DNA from: Dehalococcoidia bacterium
GTDB taxonomy: Bacteria; Chloroflexota; Dehalococcoidia; Lucifugimonadales; UBA826
Reading direction: 5' to 3'
Assembly (NCBI GenBank): GCA_029936675.1
Contig: JAPYSB010000003.1
Coordinates: forward strand, 31,489-95,488
Length of the DNA stretch: 64,000 nucleotides
Each line of letters begins with the position of its first letter. Positions within the stretch are counted from its first letter, which is position 1. A model generated the notes under the pieces. That model made no database searches, was not told the origin of the DNA, and saw only the letters and a program-made list of their open reading frames with translations. A program made the translations under genes and the position numbers. This document shows positions 24,876-49,541 of the stretch, one piece after another.

Positions 24876-25445
24876 ATGGTACTTAGCGATCGAACAATAA
24901 GGGAGGAGATTGCTGCTGGCAGGATTATTGTTGACCCTTTGGGCGAAAATGCTATTCAGCCTGCAAGTATTGATGTTCATCTCGACAAAACCTTTCTTGT
25001 TTTTCGGAATTCTAGATTGCCTTATATAGATGTTAGGCAGAGTTCTGAGGAGTTGACAGAAAAATTGGAGATCGAAGGCGATATACCATTTATGCTTCAT
25101 CCAGGAGAATTTGTACTGGGTAGTACCCTTGAACATATAGAATTGCCTAACGACCTTGTGTCAAGGGTGGAAGGCAAGAGTTCGCTCGGTAGATTGGGAT
25201 TATTGATACATTCTACGGCCGGCTATGTAGATCCTGGTTTTAAAGGACATCTAACACTTGAACTGAGTAATGTCTCTAATTTGCCAATAACCTTGTATTA
25301 CGGTATGAAAATAGGCCAGCTGTCTTATGTGCGCCTAACCACTCCGGCGGAATATCCCTATGGTTCGCCAGAGTTGGGCAGCAAATATCAAGGGCAATCA
25401 GATCCGACTGCAAGCAAAGTGCATCAGGATTTCCAAAGAAGGTGA
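24876..25445 (+). CDS. dcd: dCTP deaminase
   Basis: LSDRTIREEI, IQPASIDVHLD, VEGKSSLGRLGLLIHSTAGYVDPGFKGHLTLELSN. Confidence 0.95.
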   Translation: MVLSDRTIREEIAAGRIIVDPLGENAIQPASIDVHLDKTFLVFRNSRLPYIDVRQSSEELTEKLEIEGDIPFMLHPGEFVLGSTLEHIELPNDLVSRVEGKSSLGRLGLLIHSTAGYVDPGFKGHLTLELSNVSNLPITLYYGMKIGQLSYVRLTTPAEYPYGSPELGSKYQGQSDPTASKVHQDFQRR

Positions 25446-41230: not shown

Positions 41231-43810
41231 CTAATACTGTAATGTAAAAACTGAACCGGATTCCGTTTTTGAAATTTCAATCTGTTGATCGAAATTTTCT
41301 TTCATTGACTCTACATGAGTTATGACCATGATTTTTTCAAAATCTTCGCTGATGGATTGTATGACTTCGATAAGCCTCTCTTGTCCTATCGTGTCCTGAG
41401 AACCAAACCCTTCATCAATAAATAATATTGGTAACGGCGCCCCTGATCTGGATGCAAGTAATTTTGACATTGCTATTCTGAGTGCAAAATCGATTCGAAA
41501 AGTTTCTCCTCCACTGAATGTTTCATAACTTCTAGCACCCTGTTCATCAGATATAGTTATGTTTAGTTCTTCTGAGGGGAGTCCTGTGGCCCTATCTATT
41601 CTGCCCTCTTTCAATTCCAATTTTATGGTCATTTTATTGTCGCTAAGACGAGCCAGAAGCTCTTTAGCGGTATTTTCTAGAATTGGAACAGCTCTTTCTA
41701 TCATTAACGCTTGGATCCCATTGCGACCAAAAGCGGAAGCTAATTCTTCGTATAATTGAACATCTTCATTGGTTTTAAATATTTCTAATTCCATTGATTT
41801 TATGTCTTCTTCAGCTTTAACGATCTCTTCAATTTGGTAGCGGGCCTGCTCCCGCATTGTCACAGCATTAAGACTTTGTCCCTTCACCTTCTTGATTTTT
41901 GATTGAGTCGAATTGATATTTTGATCCAAATTCCACTCTTCAGCCAACATTTTCTCAATTTTTACTAGTTCCAATTTCCAGGTTTCTGTTTGCAATTGTC
42001 TGGCTTCTCTAATGGATTTGGTGTCCTCGATAGATTGAGTTATTGATAGAAGTCTGTCTTGCGATCCTTGCAGTTGTACGTGAAGTTCCAAATAGGGGCT
42101 CAGTTTTTCAAGTTTAGATTCCAGGTAGCTATGATTTATTTCAGTGGCCTCTAATTTTTTGAGCTTAGAATCCAGGATTTTCAGCTGGCTTAATTCTTCA
42201 GAGCAAAACTTTTCAGAATTAAGTTCTTCTTCCATTTGGACCAAATTCAGTTTAATGGAGCCGAGTTCAATGGAAGAATCTTCACTTTTCCCCAATTGAT
42301 TAATCAGGTCAAGTTTTGTTTTTTCCGTTTTGGTCTTTTTTTGCACCAAATTGGTTTGTCGTAATTCATTTTGAGTAACTACTTCTTTTTTCATAGCAGT
42401 AAGAGTTTGGATTTTTTTCAAATTGGATTCGTATTCAACTTTGCTAGTTTTACCTTCACGTTGAAGCCCGTTCCTTATGTGATGTTTGTTGCCGGTTGAA
42501 ATAGATTGAAGGCAAAGCGGGCAGGTTGCCTCGGCATGATTTATCAAGTCAAACCTATTTCGGCTATCAGACATCTGTGTCAATAAAGTTTTATTGGAGA
42601 TTTGTAAAATGGTTACCTTCTCAGACATGGCGTTTGCTTTATCTAATAGGTGTTCCGTTTCGCCAATTCCGGTCTGCAAATTTTGAAGAGTGGTGTTTGC
42701 GAGGTTGATTTCATGTAGCAAGTTTGGAATGTTATCTACGAGTGGTTGCAGATCTGTTTCGATTCGATTTGATTTATTGGAAATTTGAGATTCCAATTTC
42801 AGTTTCTCAATAGCGATTGTCTTTTCTATTACATTTTTTTCCTCGTTTATTTTATGAAAAGCAGATATCAATGTGGAAGATCTGCCATACTCCGATCGTA
42901 AATTTTGATATTCGTTATAGGTTGATTGAATCTCTGCAGAGCGATTGAGCAAAGTTTTCAATTCACCTAATTCCTCCCTCCATCGCATTTCTTGAACCAA
43001 CATCATGTCGATTTCTTTTTTTGATGTCTCAATTTGGCCAGCCATGGTTTTTTTATTGGAGGTTGCGACTAATAAAGTTTGACGTTTTAGGTTTAGATCT
43101 TCCAATTTTTTACTAAGACTTTGTTCCTCAGATAATAAATCCTCATATTCTTTTTCATACGTTTCCAATTTTTCAAGGACTAATTCTTTTGGTCGAACAA
43201 CTGAAGATTTGTTCTCTATCATGGATTGTTGCACTTCAACATCATTTTGTAGTTGGCGGGAATTTTGTTTCGATGCTGATTCCAAGCGTTCGTAATATGA
43301 GAGGTCAAGTAAGTCGGCTAAAATTTTTTTCCTGTCGGTTGGCCTAGAAGATGTGAAGCGATTGGAATCCCCTTGCTTTAGATAAGAAGTGTTTATGAAG
43401 GTTTCATAGTCCATGTTGAGTAAGTTGACTATTTTTTCCTCAGTTTCTCTTATGGTATTCGCCATTAGGGAGGATACGGTGTCACCAATGATAACGGAGA
43501 GGTTTAGTTCTGATTTCCCTGATGAGGCGCCTCTGCCTTTTGTATAGGTGCGAGTAACTCTGTACCTGCTTTCGTCCGCGAAAAAATCTAGTTCTACAAA
43601 CATAGTGTTTCGAGTGATATTGACCAGTTCATCTTGGGTTTTCGCTCTTGATTTTCCCCATATCGCCCATGTTATCGCGTCAAGTAAAGCGGTTTTACCA
43701 TAACCGTTATCTCCGGAAATGCAGGCGATGTGGACTGGCTCAAGATTTAGAGAAGGAACATCTTCTCCATAGCACATAAAATTTTCGATCGTTAATAATA
43801 GTGGGATCAT
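41231..43810 (-). CDS. sbcC: SbcC/Rad50-like SMC-family ATPase (DNA repair exonuclease subunit)
   Basis: Walker A SGDNGYGKTALLDAI, long coiled coils, zinc-hook CPLC, C-terminal FSGGETFRIDFALRIA and ILFIDEGFGSQD. Confidence 0.92.
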   Translation of the reverse strand: MIPLLLTIENFMCYGEDVPSLNLEPVHIACISGDNGYGKTALLDAITWAIWGKSRAKTQDELVNITRNTMFVELDFFADESRYRVTRTYTKGRGASSGKSELNLSVIIGDTVSSLMANTIRETEEKIVNLLNMDYETFINTSYLKQGDSNRFTSSRPTDRKKILADLLDLSYYERLESASKQNSRQLQNDVEVQQSMIENKSSVVRPKELVLEKLETYEKEYEDLLSEEQSLSKKLEDLNLKRQTLLVATSNKKTMAGQIETSKKEIDMMLVQEMRWREELGELKTLLNRSAEIQSTYNEYQNLRSEYGRSSTLISAFHKINEEKNVIEKTIAIEKLKLESQISNKSNRIETDLQPLVDNIPNLLHEINLANTTLQNLQTGIGETEHLLDKANAMSEKVTILQISNKTLLTQMSDSRNRFDLINHAEATCPLCLQSISTGNKHHIRNGLQREGKTSKVEYESNLKKIQTLTAMKKEVVTQNELRQTNLVQKKTKTEKTKLDLINQLGKSEDSSIELGSIKLNLVQMEEELNSEKFCSEELSQLKILDSKLKKLEATEINHSYLESKLEKLSPYLELHVQLQGSQDRLLSITQSIEDTKSIREARQLQTETWKLELVKIEKMLAEEWNLDQNINSTQSKIKKVKGQSLNAVTMREQARYQIEEIVKAEEDIKSMELEIFKTNEDVQLYEELASAFGRNGIQALMIERAVPILENTAKELLARLSDNKMTIKLELKEGRIDRATGLPSEELNITISDEQGARSYETFSGGETFRIDFALRIAMSKLLASRSGAPLPILFIDEGFGSQDTIGQERLIEVIQSISEDFEKIMVITHVESMKENFDQQIEISKTESGSVFTLQY

Positions 43811-43837
43811 ATTTAATCCGCTGGCTTGTAATTTACC

Positions 43838-44347
43838 TTAGTCTATATTTACCTCTGTTCCATTTAGGGTGCATACACTTTTTAGGGGTACTGCGGTTTT
43901 CACTAAATTTTCAGCGAAACAACCTTTTTTTGCCAGTCGGATGACTTCAATTAAGTCTTCCTCCTGTTGCTCAGATTCAACATCGAAAAAACTTCTAACT
44001 TCAGTTACTCCGTTTTCGACTGTGTTATCGGCCACCGAGCCTTTTAAATAGTAATCCATTTCAACATGGACCTTCGCTGAGCGTATTCCTATCTCTTTCA
44101 TCGAAGCGTACCGCTTCAAATTAGTTAATAGTCAAAACCCTATTCCCCCGACTATGTATGTGAGTGGAGAAGGGTAATTGTCATCCCCCCCCAATCGGGG
44201 TGGCTCATCACAATAGAATGTAAATTTATCTCTCGTACCCATATGAAGCATTTTTTCAAGATGTTCGCACTCAACAGACACTGTCGATTTAAAAACATCT
44301 TTCGGTAGTTCGGACCCGACTGTAGATTGTGGTATGTCACTTGGCAT
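43838..44347 (-). CDS. OsmC/Ohr family protein, candidate selenoprotein read through an in-frame TGA at codon 72 (44132-44134)
   Basis: ORFs 44132-44347 and 43838-44119 are in the same frame (44347-44119=228) separated by one TGA: ...[42 protein letters not shown]...[11 protein letters not shown]...; the TGA occupies the family's catalytic Cys position. Confidence 0.75.
44101..44119 (-). promoter_or_regulatory. Candidate bacterial SECIS stem-loop
   Basis: After UGA: cuauuaacuaau UUGAAGCG gua CGCUUCGA; 8-bp stem incl. one G-U, loop GUA begins 21 nt after UGA with G first. Confidence 0.6.
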
Positions 44348-47300
44348 TGTGGGATTCTCCTTGGGGTGTACGAATATATTCCAACATTGATTTGACGTTA
44401 TAATTTGGACCTTCTGAAGTTAGGCTTTCGGCGGCAGCTGTTGCAGTGTCAATTGAAGTGAAACAAGGTATTCTTTTCTCCACTGCTGCCCTTCTGATAT
44501 GGAAGCCGTCTTGTACAGCACTTCCATTACCGGTAATTGTATTAACCACGGCGTTTACTGTTCCGTTAACAATTATATCTACCACATTGGGATGTCCTTC
44601 ATTGAGCCGTTTTGGTATTGCAACCACCTTTTCCCCCAATTCGCTTATAAGAGAGGCAGTACCTTCTGTGGCGAATAAGTCATATCCTGCGTCAACCAGA
44701 TTCTGAATTAGCCGGTCTGACTGTTTTTTGTCCTCATCAGAGATGCTTAAAAGTATAGAGCCTTTTTCGGGAAGTCTTAAATTGGCAGCAATCAAAGCTT
44801 TGCTTATTGCTGATTCAAAGTTATAATCTATTCCCATTACCTCTCCTGTCGATTTCATTTCGGGCCCTAGATATGTATCTACTCCCGTTAACTTAGACAT
44901 TGAGAATACTGGAGCTTTTACCCCGACTATTTCAGGAGCTGGAAATAGGCCTGTTCCATATCCCATACCTGTTAGCTTCTTGCCTAACATCGCCTTTACC
45001 GCCAGATTTACCATAGGGACTCCAGTCATTTTGGATATGAATGGTATGGTTCTGCTTGACCGAGGATTGACTTCAATGACAAATACTTCAGTTTTTTCGT
45101 ATTCGGAAATACCTTCCGTTATGGATCCCGGGCTTCTGTAAGTGTTGCCGCCAACAATAACGTACTGAATGTTCATGAGTCCTTTAATATTTAAAGATCT
45201 GCCGATTCGAGTTGTGTAGTCAGTAATTGTGGCTATCTCCTGCTTTGTTAGCGTCAGGCCAGGATAAATTGCCATTGAGTCACCACTGTGGACTCCAGCT
45301 CTTTCTACATGTTCCATTATTCCGGGAATCAAGACTGACTCTCCGTCGCATACGGCATCTACCTCGACTTCCTTGCCGACGAAATATTTGTCAATTAAGA
45401 CTTTTCTTCCTTCACCAGCCTCCAAAGCATCACCCATATAGCGTTGCAATTCCTCTGGGGTTTGTACAATTTCCATTGCTCTGCCCCCCAAAACATAGCT
45501 AGGCCGAACCAGGACCGGATATTTTATTTCGTTTGCTACTTGAAGGGCCTCTTCAATGTTAGATACTGATCCCCCAGGTGGGTTTGGTATATTTATTCCG
45601 CGTAAGAATTCTTCGAATAGATGCCGATCAGAAGCAACATCGATAGTGTGTGCAGTAGAGCCTAATATAGGCATAGATTCTTTGGCCAGGTTTTGAGATA
45701 GATTTATTGCTGTTTGCCCCCCAAACTGGACAATTGAAGGTGGATTACCATCTTGCTCTGGATCAGTGGCTAATCTTTCATTGTCGATTATGTCAAATAT
45801 CGATTCCTCATCGAGAGGTTCAAAATACAACCTATCACTAGTATCAAAATCTGTTGACACTGTTTCGGGATTGGAGTTCACTAGTATACTTTTCACCCCT
45901 TCTTCCTGAAGGGCCCACGCTGCATGTACAGAACAATAGTCGAACTCAATTCCCTGCCCGATTCTTATGGGTCCGCTGCCAAGCACCAAAGCCCTTTTGC
46001 CCTGAAGTGGTTCCGCTTCATTTTCAGTTTCATATGTGCTGTAAAAATAGGGGGTTTGGGCTTCGAACTCAGCGGCACATGTGTCTACCATTTTGTATAC
46101 CGGTTTAATATTGAGTCTTTTGCGTAATTTTCGAATATCTTTGGCGGATTGATTCACTAATTCTCCAATTCGTTGATCCGTGAATCCTAATCTTTTTGCT
46201 TTACGTAATAAATCGTAAGAAAGATCATTGGATTCTATGGTTCTTTCCATGGCGATAATTCTGGAAAACGATCGTGTAAACCAAGGATCTATCCCTGTAC
46301 GTCTGGAAAGCTCGTCAGGACTTACGTTTCTTCTGAGGCCGGCTAGTAGAGCCCATAATCTTTGGTCATTTGGATAGATAGGTAAATTATTCAATACCGA
46401 TTCTTCATTGGAAAACCATGAAGGGTCTTCCCATTCTATTGATCTGTTTGTTATCTCAAGTGACCGGACCGCCTTCTGAAAAGCAGCTTCGAAAGTTCTA
46501 TCGATGGCCATCACCTCTCCCGTTGCCTTCATTTGGGTTCCGAGGGTTCTTTCTCCAGAAGGGAATTTATCGAAAGGCCATCTTGGTATTTTCACTACAC
46601 AATAGTCTAATGCAGGCTCGAAAGCGGCTACTGTTCTTTGAGTTACTGCGTTTTGAATCTCATCAAGGGTCATACCTATAGCAACTTTTGCAGCAACCCT
46701 CGCTATGGGGTATCCGGTGGCTTTGCTAGCTAGAGCTGAACTCCTACTGACTCGTGGGTTTACTTCAATTACATAATAGGAAGGTCCGATTCTTCCGGCG
46801 TCAGGCAATGTTTCAGCGACTACATTTCCTGGTGCCAAAGCAAATTGCACGTTGCAACCACCTTCAATACCCAGTTTCCTTATGATTTTCAGGCTTGCTG
46901 TTCTCAACATCTGATATTCATTGTCAGAAAGAGTCTGGCTTGGGGCTACTACAATGCTGTCACCGGTATGAACCCCCATTGGATCGATATTTTCCATGTT
47001 ACATATAGTTATACAATTATCAGAACCATCTCTCATCACCTCATACTCAAGCTCCTTCCATCCAACTATTGATTTTTCAACCAGTACTTGATGGATAGGG
47101 CTTGCACTCAATCCTGATTTGACTATCTCGATGAAATCATCATCATCTTTAGCTATACCTCCACCAGTTCCCCCCAAAGTGTAGGCTGGCCTGATGACGA
47201 CCGGTAGGCCGATCGTATTTTTTGCCTCTGTTGCCTCTTCGTAGCTGTTTACTACAAAGCTGGGAGGAGTTGGTTCTCCAATATCAGTGAGCAATTCTCT

Positions 47301-47690
47301 GAACAACTGCCGATCTTCTGCTTTTTTTATAGAGTCGACACTGCTTCCTAATAACTGGACACCATACTTCTCAAGAACACCTGCTTCGGCGAGTTCAACT
47401 GCCAAGTTTAGGCCTGTCTGACCACCTAAAGTAGGTAATAGAGCATCCGGCTGTTCTCTTTCTATAATCCTTGTTATAACCGGAACGGTTAAAGGCTCTA
47501 TGTATACAAAGTCTGCTACATCTTCGTCAGTCATAATTGTTGCAGGATTTGAATTCACTAAGATGGTTTCAACTCCTTCTTCCCTTAACGACTTGCACGC
47601 CTGTGTTCCGGCATAATCAAATTCAGCTGCTTGGCCAATCACAATTGGCCCTGAACCTATTACAAGAATCCTTTTAGGTTTTTCAGTCAA
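44337..47690 (-). CDS. carB: Carbamoyl-phosphate synthase large subunit
   Basis: 1117 aa; [31 protein letters not shown], two ATP-grasp repeats, [22 protein letters not shown]. Confidence 0.97.
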
Positions 47691-48435
47691 TTGCTAATCC
47701 TTTCTTCTTTAAATAAGAAATTAACTTGTCCGGGAAGTTTATCGTCATACCATCAGCGCCACATTCAACTACATTTTCCATAAGCGCCTCAGTAAAAACT
47801 CCATGGCATCTAACCTCAAATCCGTTGTCATGTAACTTAGTAACAAGAGATGGGGTCACCAGATCGGCCCTCGGGCATATCTGATTGAATCTATGGTTTA
47901 AAGAATCCGATATTATCGAGTCATTCCACTCACTACCAGGTCCCATGGGGACCAGCCATCCAGTTTTTATTTCTGGTGCATATTGTCTGGTTTCGATTAG
48001 CCATGGCTTCCAAAATGAGGTTATTATTGTCTTCTCAATTGCGTTAAAATCTCTGATCATGTCACAGGTCTTTTGTGCTAGCTTAGGTGTATTTCCTTTA
48101 ATCTCCACGTGTAAGTAGACTGCCGATTTGTATTCAACGAGGATTTCTTCCAGGGTGCATAATTTTTCCCCAGAATATTTATGATCAAACCAGGAACCGG
48201 CATCCAGTGCCTTTAGTTCTTTTAATGTGCGGTCGGCTACGTTTCCTTTTCCATTTGTTGTCCGATTGAGCGTATCGTCATGGATCACAACTAGCCGACC
48301 ATCTTTTGAAGAATGGACATCAAGTTCTATATGTTTAACTCCCATATTGATCGCCATATCGAATGCTGCACGCGTATTTTCGGGAGCATAGGAGGAGGCT
48401 CCCCGATGGGCTATATTAGTGATTTTTCGTTGCAT
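47683..48435 (-). CDS. Glycerophosphodiester phosphodiesterase
   Basis: [56 protein letters not shown]. Confidence 0.95.
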
Positions 48436-48437
48436 AA

Positions 48438-49541
48438 CTATTTAGTCTCCTTAACCATCTCTATGAAATCGTCAAATATGTATTCATTGTCCTTTGGGCC
48501 AGGTGAGGCTTCAGAGTGGTATTGAATACTAAGGGCAGGAAGAGATCTATGGCGTATCCCTTCCACTGTGTAGTCATTCATGCTGATATGAGTGACGGTG
48601 ACGTCTGATGGCAAAGATTCGGGATCAATTGAATAGCCATGATTTTGAGCAGTTATGTAAATTCTTCCGGAAGCGGTATCTTTGACCGGATGGTTGGCTC
48701 CTCTATGGCCAAACTTAAGCTTGTAAGTTTTAGCACCGAGAGATTTTGCGAGTATCTGGTTTCCGAGGCAAATTCCCATCACAGGTACCTTACCCAAAAT
48801 ATCCTCAGTAGTGGTTACTAAATGATCCAGAAGTTCTGGGTCTCCAGGTCCAGGAGAGAGCAATATGCCGTCAGGGTTTTGAGCGAGCAGGTCATTAGAA
48901 GTAGCTGATGAAGGAAATACTTCCACATCGCAACCTTTACCTTTCAATATCCTGAGAATGTTGTATTTAAGACCATAATCTGAGACAAGAATTCGCAGGT
49001 TGTCGGCGATATGATCGTATCCTAGTCCTGATTCTGTCCACTGATAGCGTTCATTAGTTGTCACTTTTTGTACAAAATTTTGTTCGTCATATGAAGGTTT
49101 GTTCTTTAGCTGTTGCAGGGCCTGTTCGGGGGAAATATTGACTGTAATGACTCCCATCATTACACCTTTTGACCTTATTTTTCGTGTAACAGCACGGGTG
49201 TCAATTTCAGATATCCCAACAATTTCCTGGGAGGTAAGATATTCATTTATGGTTCCGGTTACCTCGGTATGACTCGGCTCTTCACAATATTGTCTTACGA
49301 CAAATCCCGAGACCTGAATTTGTGACGATTCTATATCTGAGCTGGTAATGCCGTAGTTACCTAGAAGCGGATATGTGGGAACTACTATCTGGCCGGTATA
49401 TGAAGGGTCTGTGAGTATTTCCTGATACCCTGTCATTGAGGTGTTAAAGACTATTTCACCGTAGGCCTCACCTTCGTAGCCAAATGACTCACCTGGGTAA
49501 ATAGATCCGTCTTCAAGTACTAGAAAAGCTTTTTTTGTCAA
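48438..49541 (-). CDS. carA: Carbamoyl-phosphate synthase small subunit
   Basis: LEDGSIYPGESFGYEGEAYGEIVFNTSMTGYQEILTDPSYTGQIV; glutaminase GICLGNQ. Confidence 0.97.
   Translation of the reverse strand: MTKKAFLVLEDGSIYPGESFGYEGEAYGEIVFNTSMTGYQEILTDPSYTGQIVVPTYPLLGNYGITSSDIESSQIQVSGFVVRQYCEEPSHTEVTGTINEYLTSQEIVGISEIDTRAVTRKIRSKGVMMGVITVNISPEQALQQLKNKPSYDEQNFVQKVTTNERYQWTESGLGYDHIADNLRILVSDYGLKYNILRILKGKGCDVEVFPSSATSNDLLAQNPDGILLSPGPGDPELLDHLVTTTEDILGKVPVMGICLGNQILAKSLGAKTYKLKFGHRGANHPVKDTASGRIYITAQNHGYSIDPESLPSDVTVTHISMNDYTVEGIRHRSLPALSIQYHSEASPGPKDNEYIFDDFIEMVKETK

Follow-up and report, generated by a model that had tools for sequence, protein, structure and literature searches.

The locus described here almost certainly encodes a selenocysteine-containing protein of the OsmC family, of the OsmC/YhfA type, in a SAR202-cluster bacterium (Dehalococcoidia, Chloroflexota), as judged from comparative sequence analysis. 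It lies within a stretch of 64,000 nucleotides, referred to below as the window, and its features are listed in Table 1. Two open reading frames on the minus strand, 44132-44347 and 43838-44119, lie in a common frame and only one TGA divides them, with coordinates and sequence as an earlier note on this DNA had claimed. The frame runs from an ATG at 44347-44345 to a TAA at 43840-43838, and its sole interruption is the TGA at 44134-44132. The second reading frame, as listed, opens with a TTG, and four codons separate the TGA from this TTG.

The earlier note had also proposed that the two frames, once joined, make up a single OsmC-like protein of about 169 residues, and profile searches agree with that proposal. 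The read-through product of 169 amino acids matches the Pfam OsmC family (PF02566) over residues 54-156 with a score of 51.5 bits, where the cut-off is 27.5. Searched separately, the downstream half reaches 29.3, and the Pfam profile search gave no PF02566 match for the upstream half. The NCBIfam model NF041052 (OsmC_like_Se, 'OsmC-related (seleno)protein') is matched over residues 23-163 with 156.9 bits (cut-off 95). The selenoprotein reading accounts for the splitting of this OsmC gene in two by standard gene calling.

Table 1. Features of the predicted selenoprotein gene and its neighbours (positions in the window)
Feature	Coordinates	Strand	Remarks
Predicted OsmC-family selenoprotein gene	43838..44347	-	169 codons + TAA, via TGA readthrough at codon 72
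Predicted selenocysteine, TGA codon 72	44132..44134	-	At the OsmC active-site Cys position
Codon 143, conserved Cys, resolving position (AKKGCFAE)	43919..43921	-	From conservation and homologue alignment
Predicted bacterial SECIS hairpin, UUGAAGCG-GUA-CGCUUCGA	44101..44119	-	Begins 12 nt past the UGA
GGAG, likely ribosome-binding site	44357..44360	-	9 nt 5' of the ATG, within the end of carB; function inferred
carB, carbamoyl-phosphate synthase large subunit	44337..47690	-	3' end shares 11 nt with the 5' end of the selenoprotein gene
SbcC/Rad50-like ATPase gene	41231..43810	-	27 nt downstream; conserved neighbour

The state of codon 72 in other genomes, which had been suggested as a check, proved informative. 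Our set of close homologues comprised 16 loci from other genomes with SAR202 cluster, Dehalococcoidia or Chloroflexi in their titles; codon 72 is TGA in 15 of these, at 58-92% identity, and their frames contain no further stop, a degree of conservation far above chance. The only broken member, L024 (L024:5001-5494), has lost 1 nt from a G run and, in a second deletion, 12 nt that include most of the 5' arm of the hairpin described below; on account of these two lesions we regard it as either a product of decay or a fault of assembly. In a class-wide sample of 294 genomes the TGA form was found in 15, including that of the window itself. The 14 further genomes have TGA at the aligned codon in proteins of 23-71% identity, mostly 23-45%, and the distant members of the class that were tested pass NF041052 with 118-171 bits. 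More distant OsmC proteins of the same sample have TGC or TGT at this codon. We note that two TGA-bearing genes of the OsmC family (L045 and G119:C113:1998-2366) occur together in genome G119, and that genome G276 has a TGA form alongside a form lacking the stop (L047 and G276:C97:46523-46960). A sequencing or assembly error in a TGC or TGT codon would need to alter only one base, and such codons do occur in the more distant relatives, but with the same TGA present in 15 independent assemblies from different projects this explanation is effectively excluded.

Substitutions between the window gene and its relatives follow the same pattern before and after the TGA. In comparison with locus L010, dN and dS are 0.012 and 0.276 upstream of the TGA and 0.046 and 0.302 downstream of it. 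Changes relative to L010-L014 cluster at third codon positions in both parts; their clustering past the TGA is evidence for in-frame translation of the downstream part. These patterns indicate that both halves of the gene are under purifying selection and, together with the lack of any other stop, they uphold the view that both halves are intact rather than decaying. In a single genome a split reading frame does have the appearance of nonsense decay, and homologue L024 is broken. Even so, a pseudogene, inactivated by an ordinary nonsense mutation and decaying in its downstream half, is extremely improbable, given that the TGA is present without any other stop in 15 intact homologues and in 14 more distant genomes, that purifying selection persists beyond it and that the hairpin which follows it covaries.

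This hairpin, which resembles a bacterial SECIS element, occupies nucleotides 16-34, numbering from the U of the UGA, and the corresponding 50-nt fold has a z score of -4.05. The mean length of the uninterrupted stem is 6.2 base pairs in 30 Sec-form genes, compared with 1.3 base pairs in the corresponding segment of 15 Cys-form genes; over 2000 codon shuffles the mean was 1.28 and the highest value 2.17. The hairpin genes were sorted into two loop classes by their own best register, a procedure which itself favours pairing, and in the first class (3-nt loop) 85% of cells pair, with two-sided changes at three of eight pairs, while in the second (4-nt loop) 98% of cells pair, with two-sided changes at six of seven. 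The comparisons with Cys forms and codon shuffles were free to choose the register in the same way (sums 48-50), and no such pairing appeared in them. None of 500 shuffles matched the percentage paired in either class, and sliding the partner strand by 1-3 nt abolished the pairing in both. The apical loop begins with the GG of codon +7, and 29 of the 30 Sec forms, but no Cys form, have CGG or AGG there; the arginine at this position is therefore probably dictated by the RNA.

The hairpin is weaker in four close homologues. In L018, L021, L023 and L025 the full structure is not the minimum free-energy fold of the 50-nt segment, and three of these four keep only the inner 4 base pairs; L012 and L015 each have one stem mismatch. 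An Rfam search of 43800-44400 identified no SECIS family, and its matches were all at chance level. When the genome was searched for the exact stem downstream of a TGA, the OsmC gene was the only site, so the stem sequence is not common to other selenoprotein genes. Other pairs of frames joined by an in-frame TGA outside the large reading frames of the window (at 25443, 27125, 37196 and 40529, all on the plus strand) were considered and rejected: their hairpins are weak or badly placed, and we read these TGAs as ordinary stops followed by a same-frame reading frame.

The machinery needed to decode selenocysteine, which the earlier note had proposed to look for elsewhere in the genome, is complete. 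The host genome (2.19 Mb in 53 contigs, 96.5% complete) contains a tRNA-Sec at C3:119561-119654, which scores 65.5 bits against a gathering score of 47 and is called tRNA-SeC with anticodon tca by ARAGORN. Profile searches found SelA (530 bits), SelB (351 bits) and SelD (384 bits), all above cut-off. The selD gene (L032; G000:C10:144035-144958, minus strand) is itself a predicted selenoprotein gene, with an in-frame TGA in LASCAG-U-ASK and, some 25 nt further on, a strong hairpin that carries an apical GGU. Within the class-wide sample, SelB has strong matches in all TGA-bearing genomes and exceeds the cut-off in 198 of the 294 genomes as a whole. The tRNA-Sec lies above its gathering score in 13 of the 14 further TGA-bearing genomes, the exception being a genome that is 57% complete.

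Translation of the UGA without selenocysteine, whether by general readthrough or under a reassigned code such as UGA for tryptophan, would also keep the frame open. We nevertheless find this account scarcely credible, because translation table 11 predicts the neighbouring genes normally, the homologues have cysteine and not tryptophan at this position, the full selenocysteine machinery is present and the hairpin is a signal specific to selenocysteine. Under the selenocysteine reading, the UGA at codon 72 would be decoded by tRNA-Sec carried by SelB, SelB would be recruited by the hairpin that begins 12 nt past the UGA (apical GGU), and the charged tRNA would be made by SelA and SelD.

The position of the predicted selenocysteine within the OsmC fold was assessed by alignment with solved structures. 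The residue aligned with the TGA is cysteine in 2opl, 3cje, 9wo1 and 1vla, in keeping with the proposal that the TGA replaces the catalytic cysteine of OsmC. Cys143 (AKKGCFAE) aligns with the second OsmC cysteine; as had been claimed, it is kept, being invariant in the close Sec forms, and an equivalent is present in every distant Sec form for which the full frame was read. The predicted structure is a moderate model (pLDDT 75, pTM 0.73) which resembles OsmC-like folds, the best match being 3cje (E = 3.7e-8, TM 0.63). The closest solved relatives by sequence are the OsmC-like proteins of Jannaschia (PDB entry 3cje) and Geobacter sulfurreducens (GSU2788; PDB entry 2opl), which are also among the best fold matches and share 18-23% identity with the window protein in structural alignment. 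Both have cysteine where the window protein is predicted to have selenocysteine, and the active-site cysteine of each aligns with Sec72. The second cysteine is retained in 3cje, where it lies in KKGCF, but 2opl has none at the place of Cys143.

The product would thus be a small protein of OsmC fold with Sec72 at the active-site cysteine position and Cys143 at the resolving position. Its selenol may reduce a hydroperoxide or a similar electrophile, and a Sec-Cys selenenylsulfide intermediate would then form and be reduced by a cellular thiol. We consider such a peroxidase activity reasonably probable from the OsmC fold and the Sec/Cys pair. All intact close relatives seen of this member of the little-studied YhfA-type OsmC group retain selenocysteine, an argument for redox catalysis at Sec72.

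A credible alternative, if not the one that we prefer, is that the gene encodes a genuine selenoprotein which is not a hydroperoxide reductase but a YhfA-type OsmC protein acting on another substrate (a persulfide, an acyl group or another electrophile) or serving as a redox sensor or carrier. The residue at position -10 from Sec72, read from the sequence, is leucine; in Ohr/OsmC this position is, we assume, a glutamate. The window protein falls below the cut-off of every Ohr or OsmC equivalog model in the NCBIfam search. A review files the OsmC-like selenoprotein family under COG1765/YhfA (PMC9312934), and members of YhfA are without the arginine and glutamate of Ohr/OsmC and are biochemically uncharacterised (PMC8945050). 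The window protein probably lacks the catalytic glutamate, as YhfA does. Against this alternative, both the fold and the Sec/Cys pair match the peroxidases.

The genomic surroundings of the gene are largely constant within SAR202. The order carA-(glycerophosphodiesterase-like)-carB-OsmC(Sec)-sbcC, which spans 41231-49541 in the window, is found at most of the SAR202 loci that are long enough to display it. At L018 and L025 carB is kept and sbcC was not seen, and at L021 neither was seen. The glycerophosphodiesterase-like gene was not found at some SAR202 loci, for example L014, L017, L019 and L020. Near the more distant Sec forms, where the flanks examined were short, the order carA-carB-OsmC(Sec)-sbcC was not seen. 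From the 11-nt overlap with carB we infer that the two genes share a transcript. The selenoprotein gene is also the only PF02566 match found in the host genome. A tentative and more specific suggestion is that the SAR202 Sec form, as the sole OsmC-domain protein, fixed as selenocysteine and cotranscribed with carB, might be a YhfA-type selenoenzyme with a redox role unlike those of the known Ohr/OsmC peroxidases.

The gene does not found a new family, because OsmC-like selenoproteins were recorded in surveys of 2005 and 2008 and have their own NCBIfam model, NF041052. The precedent invoked in the earlier note is therefore real. The Sargasso Sea report of 2005 lists them among 15 new families, with three sequences (PMC1088965), and the GOS report of 2008 gives five sequences and the motif UxxT (PMC2398784); reviews of 2022 and 2026 list them as well (PMC9312934, PMC13188914). 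No paper assigning the family to SAR202 emerged from a literature search of partial coverage. The window gene is a well-supported additional OsmC-like selenoprotein of a family known since 2005. To that family the present analysis adds the assignment to SAR202, the conserved carA-carB-OsmC(Sec)-sbcC order, the observation that the protein is the sole OsmC-domain protein detected in its genome, and a SECIS element supported by covariation.

Comparison with known systems indicates where the window protein stands. The organic hydroperoxide reductases Ohr and OsmC share with it the OsmC fold and two redox residues at the same places as Sec72 and Cys143, but their first redox residue is cysteine, whereas that of the window protein is predicted to be selenocysteine. 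There is no substantive difference from the NF041052 family, residues 1-22 of the window protein lying outside the model. The OsmC-like family of the Sargasso Sea and GOS surveys (PF02566/COG1765), likened here by domain and motif, has the same domain, and its UxxT is matched by U-L-L-T in the window protein. Both are of marine origin, and in both a stem-loop with an apical G follows directly after the UGA. The available parts of the survey reports name no host lineage, whereas the window gene has a SAR202 host and a visible operon. A family first reported from anonymous ocean reads is now placed in a named marine lineage.
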